From: Natrialba hulunbeirensis JCM 10989
GTDB lineage: Archaea > Halobacteriota > Halobacteria > Halobacteriales > Natrialbaceae
Assembly: GCF_000337575.1 (NCBI RefSeq)
Contig: NZ_AOIM01000038.1
Location: forward strand, 97,831 to 159,578
Length of the DNA: 61,748 nucleotides
Direction: 5' to 3'
Position 1 is the first letter of the stretch, and each line of letters opens with the position of its first letter. Below the pieces are notes generated by a model. The model did not search any database and was not told where the DNA came from. It saw only the letters and a program-made list of their open reading frames with translations. The position numbers were made by a program, and so were the translations under genes. Positions 3,050 to 47,783 of this stretch are shown piece by piece.

Positions 3050-3220
3050 GTGTAGTCGACTTCTAGTGGGGGTGGAAATGTGAAAAGGACAGCGAACTTG
3101 GTAAGGCGGTCGGAGAGAAAATCAGACACCACTGGAAAACGAACATCGTGACTCAAATTCAATAACAGATGTAGTCGCATCTAAAAAGATTCTTCTCAGG
3201 TGTCTGTAAACAGCGTGTCA

Positions 3221-5389
3221 ATGGCGAACTACTGGCTTCTTCGGGCGGGAGAACGTGGGCGGCTCTGGGCGGAGTGGGCTGAGCGCTCGCCACCGGTTGT
3301 CACGATTGGGTGGGACATCGGTGGGCCGTCGGAAGTCGATTTCAGCGACAAATCGGCGGTGAAGCGTCGAGTTTCGCGCGCGTACGAAAGCGACGAAGGG
3401 GCGACGGCCGGCCAACTCCGATACTTCGTCGGTGGCCGGACGACGCACATGAGCCCGGGTGACTTCGTCGTTATTCTGGGGGATGCAGCCGTCGAGGCCG
3501 TCGCTCAGGTTGGTGAACTGGCGTACAATCCGTCGGGGCTCTCGAGTGCATCAACGCACACCTACCAGCGGCCGATCGAGTTCGTCGTGAAAAGCGCGAG
3601 TGCCGGTGGCGTTGCGCTTCGATCACTTCCGAAACGGTTCGGACGCGACGCCAATGGTCACGGAGAGGCGAGTCTGTACGACCTTTCCCAGACGATACAG
3701 GAGTACCACGTCACTCGCGGGGAGTTTACGGACTTACTCGAGTGTCTGAGCAGTCGGGACGATGTCATCGTCGCACGGGACCCGGACGAATTGCTCGAAT
3801 CGCCGTCCGAACGGGAGTTCTACGTTGCACTCTCGGAACCGGTGAACTTCCTGACCGCGTACCGGCGGAACGTCTGGGGAGTCCGAAACACGGACAACCT
3901 GCGTGGAACGTGGGCTGATCTCGAGGAAGGCGATATCATCTTCTTCCGCTCACACGGGAAGGGCGAGACGGACAAAGACTGGGGACTCATCGGCTACGGT
4001 GTCGTCGGCGACTACAAGGCGACGAAATCCGAGTACTGGTGGCGTGACGAACACGTCAATGAGGACGTGGTCTACGAGCACGTCTTCGGGTTCAAGGAGA
4101 CGTTCTGTCTGGGAGATCAGCACGTCATTCAGAACCGGCCAGAACACCGCAAGTCAGCAGAACAACTCACCATCGAATGCGAGGCAATTCTGCAGAATAT
4201 GCTCCCCGTCGAAGACGCCGCCGACCATCTCGGCTGGGTGTCGTTCAACGATATCAACATGTGGGGGCCGAGTCAGTCGAACGGTCGAAAACTCCTCGAG
4301 AAGTTACACGCTCACGACCGCGAGCGAGAGCGTTCACTCATCGAATCGTCGCCAGAGATCGATCTCTCAAAAGAGGATGTTCTCGCTGACCTACACTTCC
4401 CGGACGAACTCGCGAGTTCGATCGTCGAAGATGTCACTGCCGCACTCGACGCTGGGAAGCACGTCATCTTCACGGGGCCACCGGGGACCGGGAAAACGGA
4501 AATCGCGCAGAACGTCGGACAGGCACTCGTAGATACGCACGACGAAATCACCGGCTCCAAAATATCCACGGCGACAGCCGACTGGTCGACCTTCGACACC
4601 GTCGGCGGACACATGCCGTCGGCGACTGGCTCGGGTGAACTCGAGTTCAGGCCTGGACTGGTGCTTCGCCGGTTCAAGCGAAACGACGAACAGAAAAACG
4701 AGGTGCTGGTCATCGACGAAATCAACCGCGCCGACATCGACAAGGCGTTGGGACAGCTGTTTACGGTCTTCTCGGGCCAGGAAGTGCAACTTCCGTTCGA
4801 GCAGGACGACCGAGAGGTTTGCGTGTTGCCTGCCGAGCAGTACACCGGTACCCGTGAACTGGCGTCGAACGAGTACGTGATGCCGCGTTCGTGGCGACTG
4901 CTGGCCACGATGAACACCTACGACAAAACCTCGCTCTACGAGATGAGCTACGCGTTCATGCGCCGGTTCGCCTTCATCCGTATTCCGGTTCCGGCGCTCC
5001 CCGAGGGCGAGTCTGGTGATGCAATCGACGAACTCGAACGGCTCATGCACGCGTACGTCGAGACCTGGGACCTGGAGTGGGACCGCAGAGAGGCGATGGC
5101 AGTTGCTCGCGTCTGGCGGACGACGAACACGACGATCGACGACCGGTCGATTGGCCCGGCAATCGTCAAGGATCTCTACCAGCACGTGAGCCGACACGCG
5201 AACGACTCACTCTCGGCGGCGCTGACGCAGGCAGTCATCAGCTACGTCTTCCCGCAACTTGAGGGCGTGCCGAAACGCGAACAGATCGTTCGGCAACTCG
5301 CGTCGGTCGATGAGATTGACGAGCGCCTGCTCCAGACTGCTGCGCGGGATATGCTTCAGGTGACGCTCACCGAGTCCGAGCCGGTATGA
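3221..5389 (+). CDS. mcrB: McrB-like AAA+ GTPase/ATPase with two PUA/EVE-like N-terminal domains
   Basis: A 722-residue protein (ATG at 3221; an in-frame GTG at 3200 would add seven residues). The C-terminal half is an AAA+ motor of the McrB type: Walker A GPPGTGKT at 419-426, Walker B VLVIDE at 495-500, followed directly by the INR/Asn-Arg signature, and a late LLATMNTYD sensor. The N-terminal half looks like two small beta-rich domains. The first is residues 1-130 (MANYWLLRAG, then SPGDFVVILGD). The second is about 185-340 (RGTWADLEEGDIIFF, then GLIGYGVVGDY), reminiscent of PUA/EVE folds that read modified bases. McrB motors translocate DNA and activate the McrC nuclease at modified sites. 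It overlaps the next gene by four bases. The AAA+ call is firm; the reader-domain call is inferred from motif shape. Confidence 0.87.
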   Translation: MANYWLLRAGERGRLWAEWAERSPPVVTIGWDIGGPSEVDFSDKSAVKRRVSRAYESDEGATAGQLRYFVGGRTTHMSPGDFVVILGDAAVEAVAQVGELAYNPSGLSSASTHTYQRPIEFVVKSASAGGVALRSLPKRFGRDANGHGEASLYDLSQTIQEYHVTRGEFTDLLECLSSRDDVIVARDPDELLESPSEREFYVALSEPVNFLTAYRRNVWGVRNTDNLRGTWADLEEGDIIFFRSHGKGETDKDWGLIGYGVVGDYKATKSEYWWRDEHVNEDVVYEHVFGFKETFCLGDQHVIQNRPEHRKSAEQLTIECEAILQNMLPVEDAADHLGWVSFNDINMWGPSQSNGRKLLEKLHAHDRERERSLIESSPEIDLSKEDVLADLHFPDELASSIVEDVTAALDAGKHVIFTGPPGTGKTEIAQNVGQALVDTHDEITGSKISTATADWSTFDTVGGHMPSATGSGELEFRPGLVLRRFKRNDEQKNEVLVIDEINRADIDKALGQLFTVFSGQEVQLPFEQDDREVCVLPAEQYTGTRELASNEYVMPRSWRLLATMNTYDKTSLYEMSYAFMRRFAFIRIPVPALPEGESGDAIDELERLMHAYVETWDLEWDRREAMAVARVWRTTNTTIDDRSIGPAIVKDLYQHVSRHANDSLSAALTQAVISYVFPQLEGVPKREQIVRQLASVDEIDERLLQTAARDMLQVTLTESEPV

Positions 5390-6735
5390 ACAGAAACGAA
5401 CTCCTCGACGAACTGTCGGAGGATATCCTCACGTACGTGATGCAGGGGGCGTTTCCCGAGCGCGAGCTCGCACAGACGATCTCGCCCTCGCAGTTGGACG
5501 AGCGATTCGAGGATTACGAACTACTGCTTGACCTGCACTTCATCCTGAAATCGGATGTCGTCGAATTCGTCCACAAACTTCCCAAACGACTCCGAAGCAT
5601 CCGCACGGAGACGAGCACCGTGTCACAAACACATCGGGGAACTGTGAACGGGCACGTCAATTGGGGGCGGACGATCAAGAAACGTCACACACAGAATCCT
5701 CACGACGGCTCGCTGTTCGTCTGCGATAACCGCTCCGAAAACTACGACATTCCCGAAAATATCGTCCTCAAGAAGCTGATTGCAGTGATTTACCGCACGC
5801 TTCGAGAGGCGGACCCGCTTCTCAAGGATAACTACACCTGGGTTCAGGAGACCTGGGGCGACAACGAGCAGTTGATCGCCGACCTGCAGCGGGTCGTCGA
5901 TCGCAACGTCCACGTCCGCCGAATTCGGGACCCAAAAGCGTACGAGCCGACCGAGCGCATGCTCACGACTGCGGCACAGTCGCGCCAGGAGATTTACCGC
6001 GAGGCGGCCTCACTGCTTCGGAGTCGGACCAATATCTTCCAGGGCGATACCGAGGAAATCCGGTCGCTGCTCGACGAAACAGCGATCACGCCGGACGACG
6101 AGCACGCGCTGTTCGAACTCTACGTGCTCTTCCAATTCGTCGCGACACTGGAACGACTTCGGAACGAACGGGCACAGTTCAAGACGATCGCCTCCGATCG
6201 ACAGGAAGTCGCTCGCATCGACGGGTCGAAAGAGTTCGTCCTCTACCACGACAACTCGGCGCGAGATCGGAACCTCTCGTTCATCTCCGAACCGGATGCA
6301 GACCGGGAGGAGCTCGGGCGCTCGGATACAGTACAGCGAGTCGCACAGGACGTTGCAGGTGACTACCTCGGCAAAGAGTTTGAGAACCACACCGGACGGC
6401 CTGACGTGATCGTCCTCGAGATCATCTCCGAAGAGACCAACGAACACGAGTACCTCATCACCGAGGTCAAAAACAGCACGAACACCGACACAATTCGTCG
6501 CGGGATCAAGGAGACACTCGAGTACCTCGCCTTCCTGCGGGTCGACGATGAGTTCGTGTTCGGAACTGACGACGACGGGTCGTATTTTGGAACCGGGTGG
6601 AACGGGCTGCTCGTCGTGCAGGATCTGGACGCACAGACGCAGTCGCTCGCTGAGCAGTCGGACAACGAGATTACGATTTTGCAGGCGTCTGAACTCGAGA
6701 CAGAACTGGCGTCGGTTCTGGAGCAGATTCTCTGA
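5386..6735 (+). CDS. mcrC: McrC-like PD-(D/E)XK endonuclease subunit
   Basis: A 449-residue protein whose ATG overlaps the mcrB stop (ATGA), implying translational coupling. The C-terminal third contains a PD-(D/E)XK nuclease core: Asp340 in GRPDVIVLE, then Glu360-Val-Lys362 in YLITEVKN, followed by a helix with ETLEYL. The N-terminal two thirds are helical and charged and would contact the McrB motor. In McrBC systems this subunit cuts DNA after GTP-driven translocation between modified sites. Together with the upstream protein it forms a probable type IV (modification-dependent) restriction system. Confidence 0.85.
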   Translation: MNRNELLDELSEDILTYVMQGAFPERELAQTISPSQLDERFEDYELLLDLHFILKSDVVEFVHKLPKRLRSIRTETSTVSQTHRGTVNGHVNWGRTIKKRHTQNPHDGSLFVCDNRSENYDIPENIVLKKLIAVIYRTLREADPLLKDNYTWVQETWGDNEQLIADLQRVVDRNVHVRRIRDPKAYEPTERMLTTAAQSRQEIYREAASLLRSRTNIFQGDTEEIRSLLDETAITPDDEHALFELYVLFQFVATLERLRNERAQFKTIASDRQEVARIDGSKEFVLYHDNSARDRNLSFISEPDADREELGRSDTVQRVAQDVAGDYLGKEFENHTGRPDVIVLEIISEETNEHEYLITEVKNSTNTDTIRRGIKETLEYLAFLRVDDEFVFGTDDDGSYFGTGWNGLLVVQDLDAQTQSLAEQSDNEITILQASELETELASVLEQIL

Positions 6736-6938: not shown

Positions 6939-7226
6939 TTAGAATCCGTACCGCTTGTGGGCCTCGTCGATCGGGAGCACCTCGAGAACGCGAACGAGAT
7001 TTTCGTCGTCCTCAATCTCGTAGAACGCTGTCCACGTCCGGCCGATGTGGAGACGATACTTTTCGTTGCCGTCGACAGGCAGGCGCTCTTTATCGCCAGC
7101 GCCTCGACCCGGATATGGACTCTCCAGTTTCGAGAGGTTGTCCTTGATGATCCGTTCTGTCTTGTCGTCTACGTCCGCAAGCAGAGAGCGTACGCTCTCC
7201 GAGACGACGACCTGGAACGATGTCAC
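6939..7226 (-). CDS. RelE/ParE-superfamily toxin
   Basis: A 95-residue basic/acidic mixed protein with the RelE fold pattern: an N-terminal strand (FQVVVSESV), two helices, then strands with KYRLHIGRTWTAFYEI and VRVLEVLPIDEAHKRY. The Arg in YRLHIGR, and the terminal His/Arg/Tyr cluster, are in positions used by mRNA-cleaving RelE toxins. The start is a GTG at 7226, two bases after the stop of the upstream antitoxin gene, so the two are co-transcribed. RelE toxins cut mRNA on the ribosome, whereas ParE poisons gyrase; the sequence does not settle which applies. Confidence 0.8.
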   Translation of the reverse strand: MTSFQVVVSESVRSLLADVDDKTERIIKDNLSKLESPYPGRGAGDKERLPVDGNEKYRLHIGRTWTAFYEIEDDENLVRVLEVLPIDEAHKRYGF

Positions 7227-7228
7227 AC

Positions 7229-7417
7229 TTAGACCTCATCCAGCGGAACGAACTCTTCGTTCTCTTTAATCTGCTTCATATCTTCCTTGAACTGCTGGTG
7301 CTTTCGCTGTGCTGCTAACTCTTCGAGTAATTCGTCCCACGTCTGCCCTGCCTGTTTCATATCGCCCAATTCCTTGAACGTCTCTTCCGTCACGGGAATG
7401 CGCTTTTCTGCCGACAT
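7229..7417 (-). CDS. Antitoxin of the RelE-type toxin
   Basis: A 62-residue acidic, Lys/Glu-rich protein with a short N-terminal strand (KRIPVTEETF) followed by helices (WDELLEELAAQRK). This is the layout of small haloarchaeal VapB/RelB-like antitoxins: a DNA-binding N-terminus and a toxin-wrapping C-terminus. It precedes the toxin gene, which starts two bases after its stop. Candidate autoregulatory repeats lie 12-28 bases upstream of its ATG. The pairing is inferred from position and size. Confidence 0.72.
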   Translation of the reverse strand: MSAEKRIPVTEETFKELGDMKQAGQTWDELLEELAAQRKHQQFKEDMKQIKENEEFVPLDEV

Positions 7418-9267: not shown

Positions 9268-9735
9268 TCACCCCTCGAGAAACCGATTCAGTTCCCGGAA
9301 CTCGTCCGGTGAGAGAATAATCTCGGTCTCGAACGCATCGAACTGCTCGAAATCGTGGTCGATCGTTACGATCGTGTTCGCTCCTTCCGCAACTGCTACC
9401 TGCGCGTAGTAGCCGTCCCAGCCATTGATATTCACAGTGCGTGCACGTTCAAACCCGCCACGGACGACCCCCTCTGGCAGCCGGTCGTACCAGTGGATCC
9501 GCTTCGCGTCCAGCAAATTTTCTAACAGACGGGAGGCCTCCGCGTTCGACCGCCCGTAGTACGTCGTGAGTACAGTGTGTGCACCGAACAGTGCTGGGTA
9601 CGGGACGATAGCGTCGATTTCGCCAGCGATTGCGTCTCGAACGTACGAGAGTGCAGCCTCGTGAACCGGGGCGTCCGTGTGCGCGAGGGCAATGACGCCA
9701 ACATCGAACAGGTACGGCCCACCCGCGTCACTCAT
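9268..9735 (-). CDS. PIN-domain ribonuclease toxin (VapC-like)
   Basis: A 155-residue protein with the PIN layout. The first acidic residue is in the N-terminal strand (YLFDVGVIALAHT). The catalytic-type Asp is in NINGWDGYYAQVA, and the C-terminal IVTIDHDFEQF carries the last acidic pair. PIN toxins cleave RNA with Mg2+ held by these acids. The ATG at 9735 is chosen because homology starts there; the longer frame is antisense noise. The start overlaps the AbrB-type antitoxin gene by eight bases, as in typical vapBC operons. Confidence 0.83.
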   Translation of the reverse strand: MSDAGGPYLFDVGVIALAHTDAPVHEAALSYVRDAIAGEIDAIVPYPALFGAHTVLTTYYGRSNAEASRLLENLLDAKRIHWYDRLPEGVVRGGFERARTVNINGWDGYYAQVAVAEGANTIVTIDHDFEQFDAFETEIILSPDEFRELNRFLEG

Positions 9736-10012
9736 CGCGATCTCGCTCCGCACCTCGGCGGATCGCATCTCTGTGCTTCCTGGCCACTGGATCGACACCC
9801 TCCTCGAGTGGCGTCGTCTCGCCGTGTTCGGATGCTGTCTCCGCAACGAGCTGTTCCAGGCGCTCGATAATCTGGTCCGGATTGTCCTCCGGTTCGACAA
9901 TTAGGTCTCCGTTCTCTTCGCGAATTTCGACCTCGCTTCCCGGCGTAATCCCAAGCCGTTCTCGCAGTTTCTGTGGGAGGACGATCCGCCCTTTCGTATC
10001 TACCGTCGCCAT
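9728..10012 (-). CDS. AbrB/SpoVT-type antitoxin (VapB-like)
   Basis: A 94-residue protein beginning MATVDTKGRIVLPQKLRERL, the swapped-hairpin AbrB DNA-binding motif. This is followed by PGSEVEIREENGDLIVEP and an acidic/basic helical tail that would bind the PIN toxin. It lies upstream of, and overlaps, the PIN gene. The ATG at 10012 is directly preceded by a perfect inverted repeat, which suggests autoregulation. The longer upstream frame is not protein-like. Confidence 0.85.
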   Translation of the reverse strand: MATVDTKGRIVLPQKLRERLGITPGSEVEIREENGDLIVEPEDNPDQIIERLEQLVAETASEHGETTPLEEGVDPVARKHRDAIRRGAERDRDE

Positions 10013-10014
10013 AT

Positions 10015-10031
10015 TCCCACTTACGGTGGGA
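10015..10031 (-). promoter_or_regulatory. Candidate autoregulatory operator of the AbrB-PIN module
   Basis: TCCCAC (10015-10020) and GTGGGA (10026-10031) form a perfect 6-bp inverted repeat with a 5-base spacer, ending two bases before the antitoxin ATG. The position fits a dimeric AbrB-type repressor site. Binding is inferred. Confidence 0.42.
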
Positions 10032-10133
10032 TTATGGATAACTGTTTTGCTCAGCAGCCACACTGGCACACGACGGACGACACGTTCCGTGACTGAATCG
10101 CGATGCTTCTCTACTACCGCCCTCCTCGTCGGT

Positions 10134-12359
10134 TCACTCGCTGGCAACAGGCACCGTAAAGGTGAACGTCGCACCCTCCCCAGGCTCGGACTCCACCCAG
10201 ATCTCTCCGTCGTGGCGCTCGACGATCCGCTGACAGAGCGCGAGCCCGATTCCGGCCCCAGCGTGTTCTTCGTGGTTGTGAAGCCGCTGGAACACCTCGA
10301 AAATCCGATCCTGGCTCTCCACATCGATCCCGATCCCCTCGTCGCGAACGGAAATCACACACTCCTCGTCGTTCGTGTCAGCACTGATCTGAATCCGTGG
10401 CGAGTCCTCCCCGCTGTACGTGATCGCGTTGCTCAGCAGATTCTGGAACACCTGCCGGAGCTGCCCGGGATCACCCGTTACCCGCGGGAGAGGGTCCGCT
10501 GTAATTTCGGCACCCCTCTCGTCGATTGTTACCTGCAGATCATCGCGGACGTTCTCGAGTACAGTCTCGAGATCGACCGGTTCGAACGCGCTTCCACGCG
10601 TCTGGACGCGCGAGTAATTGAGCAGACCGTTGATCATATCCTGCATCCGCTGGGCACCGTCGACGGCGAAGTCGATGAACTCTCGCCCGTCCGCGTCGAG
10701 TTCGTCGTGATACCGGCGCTCGATCAGTTGCAAGTAGCTCACGATCATCCGAAGCGGTTCCTGTAAGTCGTGGGATGCAGCGTACGCGAACTGCTCTAAG
10801 CGCTCGTTCGACGCTTCGATCTCCCGTTGGTAGTCTTTGCGTTCAGTGATGTCCTGTACCATCAGCATGCCCGCGACGATCTCGCCCTCGCTGTTTCTCA
10901 CTGGGAGCGTGTGCGCCCAGAGGTCGCGGCCGAGGTGGTGCTCTTCGAACGTGTTCGATTCCCCGTCGAACACGGCCTGAAAGTACGGTTCGATCTGTTC
11001 GACGAGGTCGTCAGGATACCGGTCGTAGATAGTTGCTCCCACGATCTCCTCCTGTGACACCCCGAGGTCGGCAAGCAGTTCCCCGCCGGCCACCGTGTAT
11101 TCGAACGCCTCGTCGTACAGCCCGACTGCGCCCGGGAAGTGATCGATCAGCGTTCGATACCGCTGCTCACTTTCTTCCAGGGCTCGCTCGCGCTCGTTCC
11201 GCTCGGTAATATCGCGGACGACGCCGACCCGTTCACGCCCGTCGCTATCGGAGGGAAGGAGAGCGAACGTCGCCTCGGTAGGAACGGGTGTCCCGTCGGC
11301 GCGCTGCACCGTTGCTTCGACCGACGTATCGTCCGCCTCGTCCTGAGCCAGTTGCGCTTCGATCTCCTGGGCGTGCTGGTGGACATCGTCATCGACGATC
11401 ATCGACACGTGGGAGCCGAGCAACTCCTCGGGAGCGTAGTCGAGCATCGCCGCATAGGACTCGTTCACCATCGTGAAGATACCCTCCTCGTCGACGACGT
11501 AGATCCCATCTTGCACCGTTTCGACGATGGTCTCGTACTGTCGCAGCTCTTGCTCGCGCGCTTTTCGCTCGGAGACATCCCGGACGACGCCGACCGTGCC
11601 GTCGTACGTTCCGTCGCTGGATACGATCGGTGAAAAGCGACTCTCGGCGGGTACTCGCGTGCCATCCTTTCGAAGGACAGCCGCCTCGATCGTTGCAGCG
11701 TTCGCAGCAGCGTCAGTCAACGCTCTCGAGGCTTCGGCCGCCGTACTCGAGACGCTGTCCTCGACGACGAGCGAGCAGTGTGAGCCGAGCAGTTCCTCGC
11801 GTGAGTACCCAGTCAGGTCGACGTACGCCTGGTTTACGGTCACGAACCGATACTCGTCGTCGAGGACGTAGATCCCGTCCTCGATGGTCTCGATGATCGT
11901 TTCGTACTGGGTCAGTTGCTGTTCTCGTTCGGTCGGCGCTACTTCCGTGTCAGTGGTCTCTCGGACGACGCCGACGAACCCCTGGTACTCCCCGTCCGTG
12001 ACCAACAGATTGCCGCGCGCCTCACAGCCGAGGGTGTCACCGGCAGCAGTCTCGATCGGGAACTCGAGTGGTGGCAGATCGGTATCGCCGGCGGCGTGAT
12101 GTTCTCGAATCGCACTCTCGATGGGTTCAACACCCGACTCGGGCAGTATCAACGATACGTGTGCCCCCAGAAGCTCGTCCCGCGAGTACCCCGTCCAGTC
12201 AACGATGACGTCGTTGACCGCGACGAACTGCGCTGCAGAATCGAGCTGGACGAGGCCATCGTCGATCGCGTCGACGAACGTTCGAAAGCGATCGAGTGCC
12301 ACGTCATCAGCTGTTTCCGCCCAAAAACCCGCTGACGTGGATTCTGAGCCGTCGGTCAT
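10134..12359 (-). CDS. Multi-PAS sensor histidine kinase
   Basis: A 741-residue cytosolic kinase with no membrane segments. Four PAS domains run at about 22-140, 147-265, 270-385 and 395-510. The second and third share QYETI(I/V)ET(I/V) openings, a sign of internal duplication. A HisKA domain follows with the phospho-acceptor His in AASHDLQEPLR, then HATPase_c motifs (NLLSNA, DEGIGI, GAGIGLALC). There is no receiver domain, so the partner regulator must be elsewhere. The PAS array suggests sensing of an intracellular signal, light or redox cofactors. The start is chosen at the ATG 12359 (MTDGSEST); an in-frame ATG at 12386 is possible. Confidence 0.88.
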   Translation of the reverse strand: MTDGSESTSAGFWAETADDVALDRFRTFVDAIDDGLVQLDSAAQFVAVNDVIVDWTGYSRDELLGAHVSLILPESGVEPIESAIREHHAAGDTDLPPLEFPIETAAGDTLGCEARGNLLVTDGEYQGFVGVVRETTDTEVAPTEREQQLTQYETIIETIEDGIYVLDDEYRFVTVNQAYVDLTGYSREELLGSHCSLVVEDSVSSTAAEASRALTDAAANAATIEAAVLRKDGTRVPAESRFSPIVSSDGTYDGTVGVVRDVSERKAREQELRQYETIVETVQDGIYVVDEEGIFTMVNESYAAMLDYAPEELLGSHVSMIVDDDVHQHAQEIEAQLAQDEADDTSVEATVQRADGTPVPTEATFALLPSDSDGRERVGVVRDITERNERERALEESEQRYRTLIDHFPGAVGLYDEAFEYTVAGGELLADLGVSQEEIVGATIYDRYPDDLVEQIEPYFQAVFDGESNTFEEHHLGRDLWAHTLPVRNSEGEIVAGMLMVQDITERKDYQREIEASNERLEQFAYAASHDLQEPLRMIVSYLQLIERRYHDELDADGREFIDFAVDGAQRMQDMINGLLNYSRVQTRGSAFEPVDLETVLENVRDDLQVTIDERGAEITADPLPRVTGDPGQLRQVFQNLLSNAITYSGEDSPRIQISADTNDEECVISVRDEGIGIDVESQDRIFEVFQRLHNHEEHAGAGIGLALCQRIVERHDGEIWVESEPGEGATFTFTVPVASE

Positions 12360-42293: not shown

Positions 42294-42461
42294 ATCGTTC
42301 ACCTGTCCACATGGTATGTGTTACCACATTAAATGTCTTTTTGCTCCTGCAATATCAGATCGGGAGACGGAATCGAGAGAGACCGACTCACAGCGATGCC
42401 GTGTCCGATTCCCGGAGCGGATTGCAGGGGTTTTTATTCACCGGCTACAAAGCCCGATACC

Positions 42462-45400
42462 ATGACTGAGGCGGGCCAAACCGGACTCACGGAGTTTTCA
42501 GACGAGTCCGCACAGCGGCCGGACGAAGAGGCTGTCGCCGTCGCGGGCAACGGCGGGACCACCACGGCCGAGGTGATCGACGTCGTCGAGGAAACGCTGC
42601 CGGAACCCGAGGGTACGGCGGTCGACATCGCGGTAATGCAGGTCGACTACACCGTCGCTGGCTACGGCGACGAGGAGCGACCGATCATGCACGTCTTCGG
42701 GCGCACGCCAGAGAACGAACTCGAGCACGTGCAGGTCGTCGGCTTTCGACCGTACTTCTACGCACCGACGGAGACACTCGATCGCCCGCCAGAGGAGCAG
42801 TACGACCGGCTCACCGGCAGCGAGACGGAAGACGAGAACGGCGAGCCATACGAGAGTATCCGTGGCGAGAAGCTGACGAAAATCTTCGGCCAGACACCGC
42901 GCGACGTAGGTCAGATCCGTGACGACTTCGAGCACTACGAGGCCGACATCCTGTTCCCGAACCGGTTTCTCATCGACAAGGACGTTCAGAGCGGGATCAG
43001 CGTCCCCCAGCGCCGCGCTGAAGACGGCTCGCTCGTCGTCCCTCACACCGAGGTGGAAGCCGTCGACGTCGATGCCGACCCGCGGGTCCTGACGTTCGAC
43101 ATCGAGGTCGAGGACCGCCACGGCTTCCCAGAGGACGGCGAGGAGCCGATCGTCTGTCTGACGAGCCACGACTCCTACCGCGACGAGTACCTCATGTGGG
43201 TCTGTGCGGCCGACGAGGGCGATGGCGAGATTCCCGACGAAATAACCGATTACGAGCCGATCGAGGGCGATATCGACCACGAGATTCGCGCCTTCGACGA
43301 GGAGGAAGCGATGCTCGAGGCGTTCACCGACTACATTGCTGATCGAAATAAGGCCGACCCGGACATCATCACTGGTTGGAACTGCCTTCCAGCGGATAGC
43401 GATGTCCTCATGGCGGACGGAACCGAGAAAGAGATACAAGATATCGAGATCGGGGATTCGGTAGTCGGTTCCGACTCACAGCAAACAAGCGTTGCAGAAG
43501 TAACGAACAAGTGGGAAAGCGAGAAGGAGATTCGTGAATTTTCGTTAGCTGATGGAACATCTCTCCGATCGTCAGCTGATCATCGGATAATGGTCGGGGA
43601 TGACGATGCTGTGGACTGGAAAGAAGGGAGCGAAATCGAATCTGGTGATTACGTACTCAAACCGCGGAGGCTCTCCGTCGACGAGACGGCCGCACCCACC
43701 CTTTCGGACCTCATTCCGGTAGAGAACCAACGATACGCCGACAAACAGACGGTCTCAAAATTTAAGACGGATCTCCCATACGGTGCCGTCAGTGAGTTGG
43801 CCGACCAGTTTGATGTCACAACCGGAACCTTACATCACCCTCACACGAGTGTCTGGACACCGAAACGCTGTCGAGATGCAGCGAGCCAGTACGACGTTCC
43901 CGTTCCAGATGGTGGCGTTGAATATCGGGGAACGGGTGTTGCTCTCGAACGAAAAATAACGCCTGAAGAGCTCTATTATGCTGGGCTGATCCTCACGGAC
44001 GGATCGATGTCGACAGATGATGGCGTTCGGTTCTACAACACCCGAGAGGAACTCCATCGACAATTCCCCGGCGAGAACCATTTAGAACCGGACGGAAAGG
44101 GATGTTACAAACAGAACGTGCTGGACTATGCGACGATGTATGCCTTTCACGGACTCGGTATTCCGTTTGGGAATAAGAACGACGGTCCAGTCGATCTCTC
44201 GACGATTTACGAAATGCCGTCCGAATACATCGGTCGCTTCTTAGCGGGTGCTATCGATGGCGACGGAAATATTGCGCAAAGCGGGATCACAGTTGCTGCC
44301 GAGAACCGGTCGATCGGTAAGTGGTACGTGAAGCTATTCAAGCGCCTTGGGATCTACGCGCAGCAACGAGAGAACGTCGTTAGAATTCCCGATGCGAAAC
44401 GCGACATCGATCGACTGAAGGACTGCGTTCTCCCGTATATGGGCCATTCCGAAAAGAAAGACGCCCTCACGGAATTCGAGGGCGGCAAAAGTGGTCAAAC
44501 CGAGAACATCCCATACGCGTTGTTCGAAGCAGATGTCGGAACTGACGCAAAACGGATCGGTAACGACAAACATCGGCGCGGTATTAACCTCAAACGTCAC
44601 GAAACACACTCTGAGGAGTGGGAAGAGTACGTCTTCGTTGAGGTAACGGACGTTTCGGTAACTGGCACTGAGACGACCTACGACATCGAAACGACGACGC
44701 ACAACTTCATCGCTGAAGGGTGTCTGGTCCACAACTGCGATGATTTCGACGCACCATATCTCTTAGATCGGCTCGAGGAGCTCCAGGGCCCACACCACGA
44801 CTACGATCTCGAGATCGACCAGCTCTCCCGGGTCGACGAAGTCTGGCGCAGCGGCTGGGGCGGTCCGGACATCAAGGGACGGGTCGTCTTCGACCTGCTC
44901 TATGGCTACCAGCGGATGGTCTTCTCGGAACTCGACTCCTACCGACTGGACGCCGTCGGCGAGTCCGAACTCGGCGTCGGCAAGGAGCGCTACGCCGGCG
45001 ACATCGGCGACCTCTGGGAGGACGACCCCTACCAGCTACTCGCGTACAACCTCCGGGACGTGGAACTCTGTGTGGAACTCGATCGCCAGCAGTCGATCAT
45101 CCCGTTCTGGGACGAGGTACGCTCGTTCGTCGGCTGCAAGCTAGAGGATGCACCCACGCCTGGCGACGCGGTGGACATGTACGTCCTCCACCAGGCCTAC
45201 GGCGAGTTCGCGCTCCCCTCGAAGGGCCAGCAGGAGGCCGGCGAGGAGTACGAGGGCGGAGCCGTCTTCGAGCCGATTACGGGCGTCAAGGAGAACGTCA
45301 CCGTGCTCGACCTGAAGTCGCTGTACCCGATGTGCATGACGACGATCAACGCGTCGCCGGAGACGAGGGTCGACCCCGACTCCTACGACGGGGAGACCTA

Positions 45401-47783
45401 CGAGGCCCCCACGGGGACGCACTTCCGGAAGGAACCCGACGGCGTCAACCGGACGATGATCACCGAACTCCTCGCCGAACGCGAGGAGAAGAAGGCACTG
45501 CGAAACGAGCACGAACCCGGTACGCCCGAGTACGAGCAGTACGACCGCCAACAGGGCGCTGTGAAGGTGATTATGAACTGCTTCACGCCGGATACGGAGG
45601 TGCTGACTCCAGACGGCGTGCGCGATATTACTGATCTTGAGGTCGGCGACGAGGTGTATTCGCTTGATCCGGAGACTGAAGCGTTAGAGGTAAAGCCCGT
45701 CGTCGAAACCCACGCCTATCCAGAATACGACGGAGATCTGGTCGACATCGAGACTAGCAAAATCGATTTCCGTGTCACGCCGAACCATCGAATGCTCGTC
45801 CGCAAGAACGAAACGAACGGAATTACTGAAGACGAATACAGTTTCATCGAGGCCGGTGACCTTGATCGGGCAACGAACTACGAACTACCCCATGACTGGG
45901 ACGGGCCAGACGGAAACGAACTCGATACAGTCGATCTGACGGAGCTGATCGACGGTGAGTACGAGGTGTGGGTTCGGCCGTCTGTTCACGGCCATACGTT
46001 CACCACAGAACTGGGCTGGAGACCACGTCGAGTGCCAAAAGCAGACGTTGGGAAAACTGGCTACGTCTTCACCGCGGAAGAATTCGAGGCACACCGAGAG
46101 TACATCGAAGAGGTGTGCGAGACGAGCTTCATTCATCGCGGCTCTGGACGGAAGTGGATTCCACGGACATACGATGGAGACGAGTTCCTTGACCTGCTCG
46201 CGTGGTTCGTGACGGAAGGGAACGTGTACACCTCTGAAGACAAGCAGTTCGGCGAGAATTTCCGCGGCTCTGCGACGACAGTGAAACTGGCGCAGGACAA
46301 ACTGCCGATTGCCGACGGCGGTCTCGATCATCACGCGACGATCGGTGAACTGCTCGATGAGATGGGATTCGACTACTACGTCGACGATCGTTCCTACACG
46401 GTCACGTCGAAACTCCTCGGGAATATCCTAACATCGTGCTGCGGTGATGGAAGCTTCGAGAAACGAGTCCCTGAACTCGTCTTCGAGTGTAGTCACCGAC
46501 AGAAACGCCGGTTCCTTGAGGTGCTTATCGACGGCGACGGTGACCGACAGACGAACTCCTGGCGGTACACGACATCGAGTAACCGTCTTCGGGACGATGT
46601 TCTTCGGCTTTGTGCACATCTCGGCCTAACAGCGAACTACAGCCGTGACAGCGGAACGTGGCGAATCTACGTGACTGAAGGATCAAAGAACACGCTTCGA
46701 ATGCATCGAAGTTCGACCCAGAGTACTGCCGACAACGGAGTCTACTGCGTCACCGTCGAAGACAACCATACACTACTTGCGGGCCGAAACGGGAAGTTCC
46801 AATTCGTTGGCCAATCTCTCTACGGCGTATCGGGTTGGGAGCAGTTCCGCCTCTACGACAAGGAAGCGGCGTCCGCAATCACGGCTACCGGGCGCGAAGT
46901 GATCGAGTTCACCGAGACCGCTGCGAACGAACTCGACTACACGGTCGCCTACGGTGATACCGACTCCGTCATGCTCGAACTCGGACCTGATATCTCAAAA
47001 GACGAGGCCTTAGAGCAGTCGTTCGAAATTGAGGAGTACATCAACGATCGCTACGAAGACTTCGCGCGCGACGAGCTCAATGCTGAGTTCCATCGGTTCC
47101 AGATCGAGTTCGAGAAACTCTACCGGCGCTTCTTCCAGGCTGGCAAGAAGAAACGCTACGCCGGCCACATCACCTGGAAGGAGGGCAAGGACGTCGACAC
47201 CATCGACATCGTCGGCTTCGAGTACCAGCGCTCGGACATCGCACCGATCACCAAAGAGGTCCAGCACAAGGTCATCGAGATGATCGTCAAAGAGGGTGAC
47301 GTCGAGGGCGCAAAGGAGTACGTCAACGGCGTCATCGAGGACGTCCGAGAGGGCGACATCTCACTCGAGAACCTCGCCATTCCGGGCGGCATCGGCAAGC
47401 GCCTCGACAACTACGACACCGATACGGCACAGGTTCGCGGTGCGAAGTACGCGAACCGGCTGCTCGGCACCAACTTCCAGCGCGGCAGCAAGCCAAAACG
47501 GCTCTATCTCGACCGCGTCGGCCCCTCGTTCTTCGAGCGACTCGAGGAGGAAGAAGGACTCGATGCACGAACTGATCCGATCTATGGCGCGTTCAAGCGC
47601 GATCCGGACGTGATCTGTTTCGAGTACGACGACCAGATCCCGGCGGAGTTCGAAGTCGACTACGACACGATGTTAGAGAAGACGCTGAAGGGGCCGATCG
47701 AGCGGATTCTCGAGGCGCTTGGCGTCTCCTGGGAAGAGGTCAAGAGCGGCCAGGAGCAGACCGGACTGAGCAATTTCATGTGA
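42462..47783 (+). CDS. polB: DNA polymerase B, interrupted by two inteins
   Basis: A 1773-residue precursor. After removal of two inteins (308-758 and 1040-1451), a 910-residue family B replicative polymerase remains, the normal size. Exo I is DIEVEDRHGFP. Exo II is GWN/CDDFDAPYLLDRL, split by intein 1. Motif A is DLKSLYPMCMTTIN. Motif B is KVIMN/SLYGVSGWEQF, split by intein 2. Motif C is YGDTDSVML. The ATG at 42462 is chosen; the longer frame upstream is not conserved. A divergent AT-rich promoter region precedes it. The protein replicates the chromosome with proofreading once both inteins have spliced. Confidence 0.95.
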   Translation: MTEAGQTGLTEFSDESAQRPDEEAVAVAGNGGTTTAEVIDVVEETLPEPEGTAVDIAVMQVDYTVAGYGDEERPIMHVFGRTPENELEHVQVVGFRPYFYAPTETLDRPPEEQYDRLTGSETEDENGEPYESIRGEKLTKIFGQTPRDVGQIRDDFEHYEADILFPNRFLIDKDVQSGISVPQRRAEDGSLVVPHTEVEAVDVDADPRVLTFDIEVEDRHGFPEDGEEPIVCLTSHDSYRDEYLMWVCAADEGDGEIPDEITDYEPIEGDIDHEIRAFDEEEAMLEAFTDYIADRNKADPDIITGWNCLPADSDVLMADGTEKEIQDIEIGDSVVGSDSQQTSVAEVTNKWESEKEIREFSLADGTSLRSSADHRIMVGDDDAVDWKEGSEIESGDYVLKPRRLSVDETAAPTLSDLIPVENQRYADKQTVSKFKTDLPYGAVSELADQFDVTTGTLHHPHTSVWTPKRCRDAASQYDVPVPDGGVEYRGTGVALERKITPEELYYAGLILTDGSMSTDDGVRFYNTREELHRQFPGENHLEPDGKGCYKQNVLDYATMYAFHGLGIPFGNKNDGPVDLSTIYEMPSEYIGRFLAGAIDGDGNIAQSGITVAAENRSIGKWYVKLFKRLGIYAQQRENVVRIPDAKRDIDRLKDCVLPYMGHSEKKDALTEFEGGKSGQTENIPYALFEADVGTDAKRIGNDKHRRGINLKRHETHSEEWEEYVFVEVTDVSVTGTETTYDIETTTHNFIAEGCLVHNCDDFDAPYLLDRLEELQGPHHDYDLEIDQLSRVDEVWRSGWGGPDIKGRVVFDLLYGYQRMVFSELDSYRLDAVGESELGVGKERYAGDIGDLWEDDPYQLLAYNLRDVELCVELDRQQSIIPFWDEVRSFVGCKLEDAPTPGDAVDMYVLHQAYGEFALPSKGQQEAGEEYEGGAVFEPITGVKENVTVLDLKSLYPMCMTTINASPETRVDPDSYDGETYEAPTGTHFRKEPDGVNRTMITELLAEREEKKALRNEHEPGTPEYEQYDRQQGAVKVIMNCFTPDTEVLTPDGVRDITDLEVGDEVYSLDPETEALEVKPVVETHAYPEYDGDLVDIETSKIDFRVTPNHRMLVRKNETNGITEDEYSFIEAGDLDRATNYELPHDWDGPDGNELDTVDLTELIDGEYEVWVRPSVHGHTFTTELGWRPRRVPKADVGKTGYVFTAEEFEAHREYIEEVCETSFIHRGSGRKWIPRTYDGDEFLDLLAWFVTEGNVYTSEDKQFGENFRGSATTVKLAQDKLPIADGGLDHHATIGELLDEMGFDYYVDDRSYTVTSKLLGNILTSCCGDGSFEKRVPELVFECSHRQKRRFLEVLIDGDGDRQTNSWRYTTSSNRLRDDVLRLCAHLGLTANYSRDSGTWRIYVTEGSKNTLRMHRSSTQSTADNGVYCVTVEDNHTLLAGRNGKFQFVGQSLYGVSGWEQFRLYDKEAASAITATGREVIEFTETAANELDYTVAYGDTDSVMLELGPDISKDEALEQSFEIEEYINDRYEDFARDELNAEFHRFQIEFEKLYRRFFQAGKKKRYAGHITWKEGKDVDTIDIVGFEYQRSDIAPITKEVQHKVIEMIVKEGDVEGAKEYVNGVIEDVREGDISLENLAIPGGIGKRLDNYDTDTAQVRGAKYANRLLGTNFQRGSKPKRLYLDRVGPSFFERLEEEEGLDARTDPIYGAFKRDPDVICFEYDDQIPAEFEVDYDTMLEKTLKGPIERILEALGVSWEEVKSGQEQTGLSNFM
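43383..44735 (+). other. Intein 1 of PolB (LAGLIDADG homing endonuclease), at exo II
   Basis: 451 residues, 308-758 of the precursor. They start with Cys (CLPADSDVLMADG, block A) and end VHN before Cys of the C-extein. Block B-like SSADHRIM is present, and blocks F/G read TTYDIETTTHNFIAEGCLVHN. The endonuclease has two LAGLIDADG-type helices, ELYYAGLILTDGS and FLAGAIDGDGN. Splicing would join GWN to CDDFDAPY. Codon use is clearly more AT-rich than the flanking extein, a sign of independent origin. Confidence 0.93.
45579..46814 (+). other. Intein 2 of PolB (LAGLIDADG homing endonuclease), at motif B
   Basis: 412 residues, 1040-1451 of the precursor. They begin CFTPDTEVLTPDGVRDI and end GKFQFVGQ before Ser of SLYGVSGW. 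The last residue is Gln rather than Asn, and the +1 nucleophile is Ser. Block B is VTPNHRMLV. LAGLIDADG-type helices are FLDLLAWFVTEGN and FLEVLIDGDGD. Splicing restores KVIMNSLYG, the nucleotide-binding motif. The base composition is more AT-rich than the extein. Confidence 0.93.

Follow-up and report, generated by a model that had tools for sequence, protein, structure and literature searches.

The mcrB–mcrC locus

The window, i.e. the whole stretch of 61,748 nucleotides analyzed from the genome of Natrialba hulunbeirensis (4.16 Mb in 48 contigs), contains an intact pair of genes on the same strand. The first gene (3221–5389, +) encodes a McrB homologue of 722 amino acids, identified from its open reading frame, AAA_5 and PDB matches and motifs, with two predicted N-terminal reader domains, D1 and D2, ahead of a McrB-type AAA+ motor. 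The second gene (5386–6735, +) encodes a McrC homologue of 449 amino acids, assigned as a PD-(D/E)XK nuclease from its invariant catalytic residues and its position behind mcrB. The mcrB reading frame runs from an ATG at 3221 to the stop codon at 5387–5389. An in-frame GTG lies upstream at 3200, but the ATG was preferred as the start because the MANYWLL beginning of the protein is kept in both Natrialba orthologues (L002 and L003). The stop codon of mcrB and the start codon of mcrC overlap in the sequence ATGA (5386–5389, +). Also in most related loci the mcrC homologue lies directly behind mcrB, overlapping or abutting it.

The nearest named relatives, at 94% identity, were Natrialba sp. SSL1 and N. 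chahannaoensis, and the region around the locus is largely shared with these two. Between the window and the orthologues, dN/dS was 0.08–0.11 for both D1 and the motor, 0.05–0.08 for D2 and about 0.05 for McrC; for the mcrB homologue it was about 0.1. D1, D2 and the motor are all under purifying selection, and every part is retained.

Directly downstream of mcrC, on the opposite strand, is a gene for a ParE-type toxin (PF05016, E 4e-5; 6942–7226, −), with a small ORF for a likely antitoxin upstream of it (about 7230–7417, −). At 9271–10324 (−), a PIN-like ORF, which had no Pfam match of its own, overlaps at its start with an antitoxin domain of the MazE/AbrB type (PF04014, E 3e-12); the two possibly form a VapBC-like pair. 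The window also includes the gene of a family B DNA polymerase (1816 codons; 42333–47780, +) with intein and homing-endonuclease domains, apparently carrying two inteins.

The AAA_5 core of the McrB motor covers residues 414–583 (4460–4969, +; Pfam AAA_5, E 5e-15), and in a PDB sequence search the solved chains nearest to residues 384–588 were those of Escherichia coli McrB (E 1e-11). Its motifs, all on the + strand, are the P-loop GPPGTGKT from residue 419 (4475–4498), the Walker B motif VLVIDEI from residue 495 (4703–4723), MNTYD from residue 564 (4910–4924) and RRF from residue 581 (4961–4969). MNTYD has the NxxD signature and not the NxD of the CoCoNuTs. Judged by these sequence features, the motor is of the McrB-type AAA+ kind, with P-loop, Walker B and NxxD motifs.

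In the McrC alignment with 29 homologues, P339, D340, E360 and K362 were invariant, corresponding to the PD-(D/E)XK pattern; the PD residues 339–340 are encoded at 6400–6405 (+) and the EVK residues 360–362 at 6463–6471 (+). The window McrC had no Pfam match and no convincing PDB match of its own. Weak matches to McrC families were found among the 29 homologues, to PF10117 (McrBC) in one and to DUF2357 (E 0.009) in one, and none in the window McrC. The second protein was called McrC, with a PD-(D/E)XK active site, because of its position behind mcrB, its motif and its family; an N-terminal DUF2357 domain, the part of McrC that activates McrB, is putative in it. The overlap and the invariant PD, E and K residues bear out the preliminary description, made from the sequence alone, in which a four-base overlap coupled mcrB to a PD-(D/E)XK McrC.

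Fold of the two N-terminal domains

Scans of the N-terminal segments of McrB against Pfam, NCBIfam and PADLOC gave nothing decisive and named no family. The Pfam EVE model (PF01878) matched neither D1 nor D2 even at E values up to 10, as would be expected if the segments were ordinary McrB domains (MrcB_N/DUF3578) or unrelated helical domains. However, MrcB_N was not matched either, although Pfam readily detects it in the relatives L015 and L018, and the structure models of both segments match EVE/YTH folds, so that this reading is scarcely credible.

D1 covers residues 1–185 (3221–3775, +), with a core at residues 1–130 (3221–3610). Its AlphaFold model, built from an alignment of 18 sequences, is of moderate confidence (pLDDT 69, pTM 0.70). 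In a Foldseek search of 350,542 PDB chains, the 50 matches listed for the model were EVE- or YTH-type domains, one of them belonging to the restriction enzyme VcaM4I. With a second structural aligner, the best match was the EVE protein PH1033 (Z 10.6, rmsd 3.1, 125 residues). The D1 profile also matched the Pfam-recognised EVE domains of other McrBs (P 3.9e-6) and D2 (P 2.3e-5), compared with 0.6 for an unrelated control. Matches to EVE domains that arose on iteration of the D1 profile may partly reflect profile drift and were left out of the evidence. Weak matches of D1 to Cupin_2, Arteri_nsp7a and CdiA_C_tRNase were far below the cut-off and were discarded as chance.

D2 lies next to the motor and covers about residues 179–378 (3755–4354, +), with an EVE core at about residues 199–296 (3815–4108). 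Its AlphaFold model was built from 32 sequences (pLDDT 77, pTM 0.78). Also for D2 the 50 PDB matches listed by Foldseek were EVE- or YTH-type domains, and the best match of the second aligner was again PH1033 (Z 13.6, rmsd 2.5, 132 residues). The top two PDB matches of the D2 sequence profile, both sub-threshold and independent of the model, were PH1033 (E 0.066) and 6p0f (E 1). By sequence, D2 resembled the Pfam-recognised EVE set weakly (P 0.007).

Since the 50 listed PDB matches of each model were EVE/YTH-type, which is not expected by chance, the EVE/YTH fold (PUA superfamily) was accepted for D1 and for D2 on the strength of the models; the few uncharacterised proteins among the matches are presumably EVE members. 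Because neither domain matched PF01878, they are called EVE/YTH-fold domains and not members of Pfam EVE. The structural matches thus agree with the preliminary description in placing two domains of the EVE/PUA type ahead of the motor in a single McrB chain, and they do not indicate an ordinary McrB N-terminal or helical fold. The two-domain division given there stood, while its limits of residues 1–130 and 185–340 are replaced by about 1–185 for D1 (core 1–130) and about 199–378 for D2 (EVE core 199–296).

In YTH domains, one tryptophan of the cage is in strand 2 and another between strands 4 and 5. By strand order, W219 of D2 is in strand 2 and W273/W274 are between strands 4 and 5. Across the D2 family, W273 and W274 show 97% conservation; W219 is not shared by most D2 relatives. 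In the D1 family, an aromatic residue occupies position W31 with 94% conservation and position Y102 with 100%. Conservation and strand order together suggest W219 and W273/W274 in D2 and W31 and Y102 in D1 as candidate cage aromatics. The reader-pocket aromatics considered in the preliminary description accordingly have candidates in both domains, with a predicted placement in the pocket and with W219 as a poorly conserved member.

As modelled, the N-terminus of McrB would bear a fold of modified-base specificity, and base binding is predicted. Among the neighbours of the fold are YTH domains, which read m6A, and EVE domains such as that of VcaM4I, which read 5mC/5hmC (PMC11037411); any marks read by D1 and D2 are therefore not predictable from the fold.

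Relatives and recurrence of D1 and D2

D2 together with the motor was found across haloarchaea, with varied N-termini. Among the 194 genomes of the class, 31 were matched by the D2 profile and 22 by that of D1, and D1 was absent from most of the D2-motor relatives. D1 precedes D2 in the McrB chains of the window, L002, L003, L031 and, partially, L030, and precedes EVE in several others (e.g. L038, L042, L045, L050, L055 and L081). It is present beside MrcB_N in L073, L091 and L096 and beside DCD in L090. In the architecture table, where some loci may be duplicates of others, D1 preceded EVE or D2 in 18 chains and was combined with the motor without those domains in nine, four of which carry MrcB_N or DCD. 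Because D1 accompanies a second reader in most of the McrB chains that carry it, the two-reader McrB is a recurrent design, found also in other archaea and not unique to the window. The window and two Natrialba genomes were the only places in which the D1–D2 form of 722 amino acids, the most compact seen, was found.

In the haloarchaeal McrB at L090:451–2451 (−), D1 and the motor come after a DCD (Dev_Cell_Death) domain, which makes another two-reader pairing. In Halorubrum sp. CSM-61, D1–D2 (L030:3049–5115) and the motor (L030:6501–7757) are divided between two ORFs with about 1.4 kb between them, and this mcrB may therefore be interrupted. Viral contigs yielded no relatives when scanned with the complete McrB or with two of the D1 nucleases.

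D1 was also found fused to nucleases, with Mrr_cat in L080, L093 and L099 and with NucS_C in L097, L098, L100, L102 and L104. The D1 profile matched L093, L094, L099 and L106 at E values of 1e-17 to 1e-22, and phmmer matched D1 to L080 at E 1e-5; these sequence matches argue for homology of D1 with the N-terminal domain of the D1-Mrr_cat proteins. Those D1 nucleases that were tested match the PADLOC PDC-S02 defence candidates, and the PDC-S02 models match the D1 of the window alone (E 0.002–0.006). D1 is probably the N-terminal domain of COG4127, which was assigned no fold in a study of 2005 (PMC1189080); COG4127 is one of the domains listed as markers or companions of McrB (PMC11090510). The D1-NucS_C proteins, together with L047, which was grouped with them by its PDC-S02 match, are short haloarchaeal nucleases and candidate single-chain modification-dependent enzymes.

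D1 is distributed like a specificity module, since it is found with Mrr_cat, with NucS_C and, in McrB, beside EVE, D2, MrcB_N and DCD. Elsewhere it is on nucleases that have no second recognised reader, and it therefore probably acts as a reader by itself. The absence of D1 from most D2-motor relatives would also fit a chain in which a single domain, most probably D2, actively reads modified bases, while the other, with a degenerate fold of the EVE type, acts as a structural spacer, as a part of ring assembly or as a non-specific grip on DNA. A precedent is HHPV4I of a haloarchaeal virus, which keeps a PUA-fold domain without a detected recognition role (PMC10101028); since that domain is dispensable, the presence of two such folds is no guarantee that both are active. 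In the present family, however, D1 is constrained as strongly as D2, it keeps its family-wide aromatics, and in many D1-nuclease proteins no other reader-like domain was seen. A single active reader is thus possible but rather doubtful.

Known systems and the proposed role of two readers

According to Bell et al. 2020 (PMC7641849), EVE-McrB is the commonest defence fusion of EVE, present in nearly 300 genera and often with additional domains. Like the window, these systems have an EVE-type reader ahead of a McrB motor and a McrC partner, but the window chain has two EVE/YTH-fold domains, neither of them recognised by the Pfam EVE model. Tandem readers are not named for EVE-McrB in the accessible part of that study, and literature searches, which covered openly accessible main texts, found no description of tandem EVE-type readers. 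The same source reports that the McrB of Thermococcus gammatolerans (6p0f) has a YTH-like N-terminal reader binding m6A DNA. This McrB is archaeal like that of the window, and 6p0f was the second-best sub-threshold PDB match of the D2 profile, but its solved reader chain is a single domain of 185 amino acids, in contrast to the two domains of the window McrB. McrBC of E. coli K-12 shares the McrB-type AAA+ motor and the McrC nuclease partner, whereas its reader is DUF3578 (PMC7641849) in place of two EVE/YTH folds.

The PDC-S02 and D1-Mrr_cat nucleases, probably COG4127, share D1 as the N-terminal domain, but combine it with a nuclease in one chain, while in the window it is on a McrB motor and before a second reader. 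HHPV4I (PUA-wH-HNH) resembles the window protein in that a single chain for modification-dependent restriction combines two domains of the reader type (PMC10101028, PMC11037411); it differs in being a single, NTP-independent enzyme of PUA, winged helix and HNH (PMC10101028). The McrBC type, the EVE-McrB fusion and the association of COG4127 with McrB are thus already known, and what would be new is the presence of two EVE/YTH-fold readers on one compact chain.

The CoCoNuTs (PMC11090510) are a branch of McrBC with EVE/YTH-like domains, as in the window, and for them targeting of RNA or RNA/DNA hybrids has been proposed. Such targeting would also agree with YTH folds reading mostly m6A in RNA (PMC11037411). 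However, the CoCoNuTs carry NxD instead of NxxD in the published McrB tree (PMC11090510) and have coiled coils and tandem nucleases, whereas the window motor has NxxD, and coiled coils, a second nuclease of the coiled-coil type or an RNase domain were found in neither McrB nor McrC. Elsewhere D1 is on Mrr_cat and NucS_C, which are DNA-nuclease families. Targeting of RNA or of RNA/DNA hybrids is therefore very unlikely. The hybrids were set aside, as no feature supports them as a target; the locus gave no evidence that the two readers recognise RNA/DNA hybrids or marks of a paired or hybrid kind, as suggested in the preliminary description.

We consider it fairly probable that D1 and D2 can each dock the McrB ring on modified foreign DNA, which McrC then cuts, and that the two readers widen the range of marks or add to the grip. 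McrB would assemble into a nucleotide-driven AAA+ ring, presumably a hexamer, with two EVE/YTH-fold readers per subunit. D2, adjoining the motor, would be the standing reader of the lineage, and D1, ahead of it, an add-on module that elsewhere serves on nucleases without a second reader. Through either domain the ring may attach to a modified base that has been flipped out of foreign DNA; translocation would be powered by NTP hydrolysis, and the co-translated PD-(D/E)XK McrC would cut the DNA. Ring binding, translocation and cutting by McrC are proposed here from the likeness to McrBC.

The two readers would most likely broaden the range of marks or strengthen the grip by bivalent binding, and either role is favoured over a strict coincidence gate. 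In such a gate, D1 and D2 would read different marks that are both needed before cleavage, so that singly marked host DNA would be spared and doubly marked viral DNA cut; we regard this as unlikely. The host genome has methyltransferase genes of the N4/N6 type (PF01555), and no C5 methyltransferase (PF00145) was found in it. This set hints that cytosine marked at C5 could be attacked safely, and m6A and m4C in other sequence contexts are also compatible with it. No virus is named as the target, since a literature search for published marks of the virion DNA of the Natrialba virus phiCh1 found nothing usable.

With both readers and the motor in 722 residues, the McrB of the window offers a compact model for how a single AAA+ restriction ring accommodates two readers. 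The models further suggest an EVE/YTH fold for the mobile N-terminal domain of Mrr_cat and NucS_C nucleases and of McrB. With this fold for D1, the PDC-S02 candidate anti-virus nucleases would become testable as modification-dependent enzymes, and nucleases of the D1 type could provide new reagents for the mapping of DNA marks.
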